DNA from: a virus
Virus record (IMG/VR): IMGVR_UViG_3300030085_001501
Span: 1 to 28,421 of that record
Direction: 5' to 3' (one strand)
Length of the DNA: 28,421 nucleotides
Shown here: positions 9,896 to 11,353 of the stretch, piece after piece
How positions within the stretch are numbered: position 1 is the first letter of the stretch
Layout of the letters: the number at the start of each line of letters is the position of its first letter
Made by a program: the position numbers and the translations under genes
The notes under the pieces: generated by a model
Told to the model about the DNA's origin: nothing
What the model saw: only the letters and a program-made list of their open reading frames with translations
Database searches by the model: none

Positions 9896-10266
9896 AGGAC
9901 TGGTTGAAGTCGATCAACGAAACTAAGGACAATCTGATCGATGAAGATCCGTTGCTAGAGTCAAAATATCTGCCTTACATTGTCAATCGATGCATGTCTG
10001 GGCATATTGATGCCTTGATGTATGCAAATGAGATGAATATCAATTCTCATCTAGATAAAAAGTTACAGTATGACTTCTTTCTAAATAGTCTGAGATCCAA
10101 GAAGAGATTTTCTCCTTGGATGCGGAAAGAAGAGTTATCAAACCTCCAAACCGTCAAAAAATACTATGGGTATAGTGACGAAAAGGCGAGGCAAGTGCTT
10201 CCTCTACTATCTGATGAACAACTAGACATTATTCGACAACGATTTGACACTGGAGGATTGAAATGA
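9886..10266 (+). CDS. 62: Clamp loader small subunit, gp62 (short cyanophage form)
   Basis: gp62 joins four gp44 subunits to make the clamp loader. The product starts DWLKSINETKDNLIDEDP and contains YIVNRCMSGHIDALMYANEM and KKRFSPW, phrases I recognise from cyanophage gp62. At 126 residues it is much shorter than T4 gp62 (187), as is usual in cyanophages. It is followed by regA through an ATGA overlap, as in the T4 regA/62 neighbourhood, but gp44 is separated from it by about 5 kb. Confidence 0.9.
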   Translation: MDLKDWLKSINETKDNLIDEDPLLESKYLPYIVNRCMSGHIDALMYANEMNINSHLDKKLQYDFFLNSLRSKKRFSPWMRKEELSNLQTVKKYYGYSDEKARQVLPLLSDEQLDIIRQRFDTGGLK

Positions 10267-10700
10267 GCGGTACTGAACCGATTTATCAATGGTCGCCTGA
10301 TAAAATGATTGAAGTGGTTCTTGCAGAACCAGATGATTTTCTAAAAGTACGCGAGACGCTTACTCGTATTGGTGTAGCGAGTCGCAAAGAGAAAAAACTG
10401 TACCAGTCCTGCCATATTCTGCATAAGCAGGGACGTTACTATATTGTGCACTTCAAAGAACTGTTTGCTCTTGATGGAAAGAAGGCAAACTTGAGTGTGA
10501 ATGACGTTCAACGTCGTAATCGCATCGTAAAATTGCTTGTAGACTGGGGTCTTGTTCAGATTTCTGAAGAAGGATTCAATAGAATTGTTGACGTGTCTCC
10601 TCTGAATCAGATCAAAGTTATCTCATTCAAAGAGAAAGCAGAGTGGTCTTTGGAAACGAAATACAACATTGGTAAGAAAAAAGTTGCCACAGATACCTAA
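10263..10700 (+). CDS. regA: RegA translational repressor
   Basis: RegA binds AU-rich start regions of early phage mRNAs and blocks ribosome loading. The signature runs through the protein: EPDDFLKVRETLTRIGVAS, KLYQSCHILHKQGRYYIVHF, LLVDWGLVQI and VISFKEKAEW all mirror T4 RegA. At 145 residues it is longer than T4 RegA (122) because of an N-terminal extension (MSGTEPIYQWSPDK) and a slightly longer tail; an internal ATG at codon 15 aligns with the T4 start. The gene overlaps gp62 by four bases. Confidence 0.96.
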   Translation: MSGTEPIYQWSPDKMIEVVLAEPDDFLKVRETLTRIGVASRKEKKLYQSCHILHKQGRYYIVHFKELFALDGKKANLSVNDVQRRNRIVKLLVDWGLVQISEEGFNRIVDVSPLNQIKVISFKEKAEWSLETKYNIGKKKVATDT

Positions 10701-10755
10701 ATAAATCGTCGCTCTTTCGTGCGCGACACGCTACATACGGAATATACGCTACGAG

Positions 10756-10782
10756 AAGGGGGGTTACCAACACCCCCTTTTT
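10756..10782 (+). terminator. Intrinsic terminator after regA
   Basis: AAGGGGG (10756-10762) pairs with CCCCCTT (10773-10779); inside, GTT/AAC (10763-10765 with 10769-10771) extends the stem with one bulged A. A T run follows to 10782. It ends the gp62-regA transcript before the hsp20 leader. Confidence 0.88.
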
Positions 10783-10794
10783 CATGCTTGCTCT

Positions 10795-10800
10795 TATAAT
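10795..10800 (+). promoter_or_regulatory. Possible -10 box for hsp20
   Basis: A perfect TATAAT lies 13 bases after the regA terminator, but no -35 box is visible at the right distance and there is no TGn extension. If used, transcription starts near 10807 and gives a leader of about 90 bases before hsp20. It may need an activator or be weak. Confidence 0.5.
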
Positions 10801-10818
10801 TAGTACTGTAAGAGGATT

Positions 10819-10893
10819 GGGATCTTAGGATCCCCCTTTTACGCCAAAGGTTGCCTTCGGGGACCACACAACACATTCTGCCTAACAGGAGAA
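10819..10893 (+). promoter_or_regulatory. hsp20 leader with three hairpins; putative RNA thermometer
   Basis: Three hairpins can be drawn by eye. (1) GGGATC 10819-10824 with GATCCC 10829-10834. (2) GGTTGCC-TTCG-GGGACC, 10849-10865, a UUCG tetraloop with one bulged G. (3) TTCTGCCT 10876-10883 with AGGAGAA 10887-10893: seven pairs, a three-base loop and one bulged G (10880). The third hides the whole Shine-Dalgarno sequence AGGAG just before ATG 10896. A weak, bulged, SD-covering hairpin before a small heat-shock gene is the layout of ROSE-type and cyanobacterial hsp17 thermometers. Function is inference. Confidence 0.5.
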
Positions 10894-10895
10894 CA

Positions 10896-11327
10896 ATGTC
10901 TAACATCGAGAAGTATCGTGCAGCCAGTCTGCCGGACCTTATTGACCGTATCAATAAGAACGCCCTTGGATGGGATCAATCATTCAATCAGTTTTGGGAA
11001 TCAAATACCTTTGGTGGTAACTATCCCCCATACAACATCGTACAACTCAGCAATCATGAGACTAGACTTGAGGTAGCACTCGCTGGATTCAAGAAAGATG
11101 AAGTCAAGGTCTTTACTGAGTATGGTAAGTTGGTTGTAGAAGGATCCAAAGCAGAAAACGAAGAGGAAGAATATCTTCACCGTGGTCTAGGCACCCGGAA
11201 GTTTACCCGCAAGTGGTCGATTGCCGAGGATGTCAAAATCAATTCGGTGACTTTTGAAGATGGTTTGTTGGTAGTGAACATCGGTAAGATTGTTCCTGAG
11301 CATCACGCCCGTAAAGATTACCTCTAA
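10896..11327 (+). CDS. hsp20: Small heat-shock protein Hsp20
   Basis: An ATP-independent chaperone that holds unfolding proteins; common in cyanomyoviruses. 143 residues. The alpha-crystallin domain spans about residues 45-133: NIVQLSNHETRLEVALAGF, KLVVEGSKAENEEEEYLHRG, then FTRKWSIAEDVKINSVTFEDGLL, with the typical GLL strand and the RKW/FxRxW-like motif. The start at 10896 is set by the Shine-Dalgarno AGGAG six bases upstream; an in-frame ATG at 10851 lies in the structured leader and is rejected. The usual C-terminal IxI motif is not obvious (ending IVPEHHARKDYL). Confidence 0.93.
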   Translation: MSNIEKYRAASLPDLIDRINKNALGWDQSFNQFWESNTFGGNYPPYNIVQLSNHETRLEVALAGFKKDEVKVFTEYGKLVVEGSKAENEEEEYLHRGLGTRKFTRKWSIAEDVKINSVTFEDGLLVVNIGKIVPEHHARKDYL

Positions 11328-11353
11328 ATACTACTACGGTTAGTAGTCAGTAA

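Follow-up and report, generated by a model that had tools for sequence, protein, structure and literature searches.

The hsp20 Leader and Its Surroundings

The DNA analysed here, referred to as the window, is the whole stretch of 28,421 nucleotides covering positions 1 to 28,421 of the IMG/VR virus record IMGVR_UViG_3300030085_001501, and is a fragment of a marine T4-like cyanophage. On its plus strand, to which the leader features given below also belong, the gene hsp20 (10896–11327, start codon at 10896) encodes an IbpA-type small heat-shock protein of 143 amino acids (Pfam PF00011, 52.7 bits; PHROG 432, E 5.8e-51). The subject of this work is the leader of this gene, at 10808–10898, for which a preliminary description had proposed an RNA thermometer of the ROSE type. 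Folding places three hairpins in it. Hairpin A (10808–10842) is an accessory 5′ hairpin with the outer stem GUAAGAGG/CCUUUUAC and a variable inner stem. Hairpin B (10849–10865; hairpin I of the family reported below), seen in the fold and in covariation, reads GGUU-(G10853)-CC-UUCG-GG-GACC, that is, a GGUU/GACC stem, the bulged G10853, a CC/GG step and a UUCG loop. It is followed by an unpaired CA-rich linker, ACACAACACA (10866–10875), and by hairpin C (10876–10893; hairpin II of the family), in which UUCU-(G10880)-CCU pairs across the loop AAC with AGG-AGAA and sequesters the Shine-Dalgarno (SD) sequence AGGAG (10887–10891), as judged from the fold and from comparison with relatives. The preliminary description was right on the position of the three hairpins, on the pairing of TTCT-G-CCT with AGGAGAA over the SD, and on G10880 as a bulge of the anti-SD strand.

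The whole leader is more stable than its dinucleotide shuffles (z = −2.59, 3 of 200 as good), mostly owing to hairpins A and B. Hairpin C alone lies within chance by energy, since shuffling its upstream side gave an equally stable fold in 145 of 1000 cases; as it is not significant in a single sequence, the case was decided by its relatives.

Upstream of hsp20 lies a regA homologue (10263–10700; PHROG 242), after which a terminator-like hairpin, GGGGGG..CCCCC followed by a T run (10758–10782; read by eye and unscored), would set regA apart from the hsp20 transcript. A late-promoter-like motif, TATAATTA, follows at 10795–10802. Motifs of this type are common upstream of hsp20: a late-promoter-like 7- or 8-mer was found between −110 and −35 in 184 of 206 distinct hsp20 leaders, against 9 expected by shuffling. 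Placed from this motif, the transcript start is predicted near 10808, so that hairpin I, or hairpin A where it is present, would stand near the 5′ end of the mRNA. Further CTAAATA late-promoter-like motifs were observed in the window at 10697–10703, where regA ends, and at 11324–11330, at the hsp20 stop codon.

Conservation of the Leader in Marine Phages

To look at the relatives, 80 hsp20 loci were picked on protein similarity alone. A hairpin of 3 bp, a bulged G and 3 bp, with a loop of 3–4 bases, stands over the SD exactly so in 74 of them, and four further loci carry the variant CCU-AG-CUU/AAG-G-AGG. Reduced to distinct leaders, the set has the bulged-G SD hairpin in 53 of 57; among the other genes with an SD on those contigs, 15 of 475 have it, and it turned up in 1.1% of shuffles. 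The pairing is CUC-G-CUU/AAG-GAG in 68 of the 74 scored loci, and the hairpin of the window departs from this family form, CUCGCUU/AAGGAG, as an atypical variant shifted in register. The proteins encoded behind the conserved leader are 29–98% identical to the query, and linker and loop vary.

The 18-mer CTTCGGGGACCACACAAC (10855–10872) occurs exactly in 71 viral contigs, directly 5′ of hsp20 in 69; in the other two, where no hsp20 was found, the match lies at most about 110 bases from the end of the available DNA. A blind scan for ACTCGCTT-N1-8-AAGGAG returned 120 contigs, with the match directly before hsp20 in at least 77 and, once start codons were placed by hand, in about a dozen more. Moreover, a covariance model, R1, was built from the phage leader alignment. 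In the window, which belongs to the training set, it gives by construction one significant match (10847–10898) and otherwise nothing below E 7. Among 11 complete phage genomes, nine have one match below E 1e-5, always at the leader of hsp20, and nothing else in the 11 falls below E 0.1; five of the nine (S-SSM5, S-CAM3, P-SSM2, P-HM2 and S-PM2) are outside the training alignment, although near relatives of them may be inside. A leader hairpin that was not conserved, which the preliminary description had named as the outcome that would speak against it, is not what we found: the structure is conserved and specific to hsp20. A recognisable form also precedes hsp20 in the Pelagibacter phages HTVC008M, Mosig and HTVC115P, in the Methylophilales phage Melnitz and in the Pseudomonas jumbo phage PA5oct, and that phage groups so far apart share the element before this gene suggests that the switch moves along with it.

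Covariation is strongest in the middle hairpin. Of 92 non-redundant leaders, in which sequence alone was used to anchor hairpin I, 99–100% have its stem levels 2, 3 and 4 paired, against 45–68% after partner shuffling, with at least four pair types at each level; in the alignment, 60 cells were changed on both sides, against 22 in shuffles. Its bulged G and CC/GG core are invariant in all 92 leaders, but the anchor GCC..GG demanded them. In hairpin II, compensated variants were observed, namely UCU-G-CCU/AGG-AGA in the window, UCU-G-CCU/AGG-GGA in locus L008 and CCAC-G-CUU/AAG-GUGG in S-TIM5. The covariation in other cyanophage hsp20 leaders to which the preliminary description had looked is therefore strong in hairpin I and, in hairpin II, takes the form of these variants. 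Hairpin A was found in 14 distinct leaders, with compensatory changes in its outer stem (GUCAGAGG/CCUUUGAC and GUUGGAGG/CCUUCAAC). Its 3′ arm in the window, CCUUUUAC, resembles an anti-SD, and some relatives (L115) might adopt an alternative fold in which this arm is paired with the AAAGG in the SD region.

The same leader element was also noticed before small uncharacterised genes of 63–84 amino acids, some of them phasin-like by eye, with no significant Pfam match (L177 1596–1654, minus strand; L277 2294–2357, minus; L242 966–1018, minus; L191 4297–4341, minus; L226 2091–2133, plus; L219 1467–1524, plus). In L177, L277 and L242 the gene after the small one is hsp20, which suggests a two-gene stress operon. 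In addition, an AhpC-type peroxiredoxin gene is preceded by ACTCGCTTAACAAGGAG (L170 2468–2506, minus strand; R1 E 0.046, perhaps by chance), and on another viral contig hsp20 is closely followed by a strong manA RNA motif (L033 1968–2157; RF01745, 187 bits).

Comparison with Known RNA Thermometers

A temperature-responsive leader in a phage has a precedent in the cIII RNA thermosensor of phage lambda, which adopts two alternative conformations and controls lysogeny; its sequence is unrelated to that of the phage hsp20 leader. In the open-access papers searched, no account was found of an RNA thermometer ahead of hsp20 in cyanophages, subscription papers being outside the search. The major characteristic of ROSE thermometers is a U(U/C)GCU sequence blocking the SD, and in Pseudomonas a version with two hairpins suffices (PMC3669281). 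The phage family has this motif in its 3′-proximal hairpin, as CUCGCUU or CUUGCUU opposite AAGGAG, the latter in some phage leaders such as those of S-CRM01 and Melnitz; the window itself has the shifted UCUGCCU/AGGAGA, strictly UGCC in place of U(U/C)GCU. The other traits of ROSE elements were also found: the bulged G on the anti-SD strand, the extra upstream hairpins I and A, and the position in the leader of a small heat-shock protein gene.

The closest counterparts are two bacterial ibpA leaders. That of E. coli (ROSE_2, RF01832) reads UUCUCGCUGAUUUCAGGAG; its anti-SD core, CUCGCU opposite AGGAG, is identical to that of the phages and it has an upstream hairpin with a bulged G, whereas its inner stem is longer and more stable, and the phage leaders stay under the Rfam threshold. 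That of P. aeruginosa (ROSE_3, RF02523), a short ROSE-like thermometer reading CUUGCUGAUAAUUCAGGAG, shares with the phages a GC-rich hairpin I with a bulged G (GGGAU-G-CC..GG-GUUCC; AUGCC..GGGU), a bulged-G SD hairpin with U(U/C)GCU opposite AGGA, and control of an IbpA-type gene. It differs in the inner SD stem, which is CUGA/UCAG instead of the usual phage CUU/AAG (3 bp); on the phage side, there are a late-promoter-like motif upstream and a cyanobacterial host, and the covariance models do not cross-match. This control sequence was taken from a record named ‘Pseudomonas phage Y7’ (OQ572409.1, unverified; L293), which apparently holds the chromosomal ibpA of P. aeruginosa with its ROSE_3 leader, probably as host contamination. 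The rhizobial hspA element (ROSE, RF00435) has UUGCU opposite GGAGGA as well, but is longer and has more hairpins than the phage leader. The hsp17 thermometer of Synechocystis shares the cyanobacterial-host setting and a single short SD hairpin, but has a 1 × 3 internal loop and no ROSE motif (PMC4477652); moreover, the small heat-shock proteins of the hosts are of class B and those of the phages of class A (PMC3827213).

The Rfam ROSE models recognise the bacterial controls, E. coli and P. aeruginosa ibpA, while RF00435, RF01832 and RF02523 all remained below the gathering threshold in the window, in 20 relatives and in the S-T4 leader, and loose thresholds gave no relevant match for the phage leaders tested either. 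Conversely, R1 had no significant match at the P. aeruginosa element or at the E. coli ibpA leader. In E. coli, a weak R1 match (E 0.068) falls on the ibpB leader (L286 1896–1974, minus strand), not on that of ibpA. The phage leaders are thus ROSE-like in architecture and motif and stand outside all three Rfam ROSE families.

Predicted Response to Temperature

In folding of the full leader, the predicted accessibility of the SD hardly changes from 10 to 50 °C, and the comparison of 20 and 45 °C proposed in the preliminary description did not separate the two temperatures for the window. The validated ibpA thermometers of E. coli and P. aeruginosa are equally flat in computed melting. Since no clear transition was computed even for these controls, the melting calculation was dropped as evidence either way. 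As isolated hairpins, the SD hairpins reach a free energy of zero at 58 °C in the window, 57 °C in P. aeruginosa, 67 °C in E. coli and 46–50 °C in typical phage relatives; without G10880, that of the window would do so at 79 °C. The predicted stabilities of the phage hairpins are thus in the range of, or below, those of validated ROSE hairpins.

The Phage Hsp20 and Its Origin

The phage Hsp20 is class A, IbpA-like. E. coli IbpA binds and represses its own ROSE leader, a function for which R93 is irreplaceable, although it is nearly dispensable for chaperone activity, and which demands an aromatic residue at position 34 (PMC10474464). Among 212 phage Hsp20s, the equivalent of Arg93 is kept in 211, position 34 is Tyr or Phe in all 212, and a basic residue (R or K) stands at the equivalent of R97 in 201, while K98 is not conserved; the protein of the window carries Arg93, Tyr34 and Arg97. 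E. coli IbpB, which has no self-repression activity, has Gln at 93. The two residues that self-repression requires are therefore present in the phage proteins, a point that the preliminary description had missed, as it had the strong covariation of the middle hairpin and the usual family pairing.

Small heat-shock proteins of the cyanobacterial hosts are of class B, and the 13 Prochlorococcus genomes examined lack such proteins altogether (PMC3827213). In the plasmid collection, the closest cellular proteins are alphaproteobacterial Hsp20s; this, together with the class B type or absence of the host proteins, makes the host an unlikely donor, and the sequences fit, without proving, a proteobacterial donor of gene and leader. 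When cellular relatives were sought by protein in the genome collection, six loci came up, all of them weak or phage-like. In the 94 genomes of the class of G001, a gammaproteobacterial metagenome-assembled genome, R1 gave, besides a phage-like contig, one match before an ibpA-type gene, in G001 itself (L305 1501–1560, E 0.02), a possible cellular relative; the remaining matches have no hsp20 nearby and look like chance. Among the contigs of G001 is also one of a T4-like phage that carries hsp20 (L280).

How the Leader May Work

Our best reading of these sequences is a family of ROSE-like, SD-sequestering leaders in marine phages, mostly cyanophages, that has so far gone unannotated, and we regard it as fairly probable that the leader is a translational switch of phage hsp20 opened by heat. 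In such a switch, the late-promoter-like motif would start the mRNA at about 10808, and the mRNA would fold into the stable 5′ hairpins A and B and the weak SD hairpin C, broken by its bulged G. At normal growth temperature hairpin C would cover the SD, and heat would open it to ribosome entry. The opening by temperature is inferred from analogy with ROSE elements having the same anti-SD motif. Besides the atypical register of the window, the flat accessibility computed for the full leader as for the validated controls, and the silence of the Rfam models and of R1 across the phage and bacterial elements, two results weigh against this reading: covariation in hairpin II is thin, as the SD hairpin hardly varies, and RNAalifold on the alignment yields hairpin I only.

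The strongest competitor, to which we give somewhat less than an even chance, is that the leader responds mainly to protein, Hsp20 binding its leader and repressing its own translation for as long as it is not drawn off by misfolded proteins of phage or host, with heat as one trigger among others. The precedent of E. coli IbpA and the conservation of Arg93, of the aromatic residue at 34 and of a basic residue at 97 make self-repression a serious second or alternative signal, and hairpin I keeps a sequence-specific UGCC/CGCC..GG core and a bulged G while its stem changes freely. On the other hand, the conservation of R93 in class A small heat-shock proteins may have other causes, binding to the leader is putative, and K98 is not kept. 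Self-repression would also be compatible with the heat-opened switch as a second layer, and such an added feedback, with the phage Hsp20 binding its own leader, is likely.

It seems improbable that the hairpins do no sensing at all and serve only to shield the mRNA at its 5′ end or to fix a low translation rate. A stable hairpin directly at the predicted 5′ end and the weak melting predicted across the physiological range would agree with this, but stability alone would not keep the anti-SD and the bulged G across proteins so divergent while linker and loop vary. Still less can be said for the leader as the target of a T4-type post-transcriptional regulator, through RegA repression or RegB cutting at GGAG, which we judge very unlikely: regA precedes hsp20 in the window and in several relatives, yet the element persists beside other neighbours in S-SSM5, P-SSM4 and P-RSM6, and neither regulator explains the anti-SD pairing; the RegB model was silent in 11 phage genomes, although its control was silent too. 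Finally, a chance fold of the SD hairpin, which the shuffles of the window alone would allow, is scarcely credible in view of its near confinement to hsp20 leaders and of the single significant model match at hsp20 in nine of 11 genomes.

With the heat-opened switch as the preferred reading, and by analogy with ROSE elements, the phages probably produce the chaperone only once the hairpin has been opened by warmth or by misfolded protein. A wider proposal is more tentative, and we hold it with about one part belief to two parts doubt: the IbpA-type Hsp20 and its ROSE-like leader may form a proteobacterial-type chaperone cassette in hundreds of marine phages of cyanobacteria, Pelagibacter and methylotroph hosts, in which the protein binds its own leader and the phage itself senses heat and misfolded protein, adjusting the supply of chaperone in virion assembly without the host heat-shock system. 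T4-like cyanophages share 25 core genes, of which hsp20 is one (PMC3037559), and its role there is unsettled. If sensing of temperature or of misfolding holds true, these leaders would carry ROSE-like control outside the proteobacteria, supply a structured RNA family that the searched Rfam release lacks, and tie ocean temperature to protein folding and phage production in a way open to direct test.
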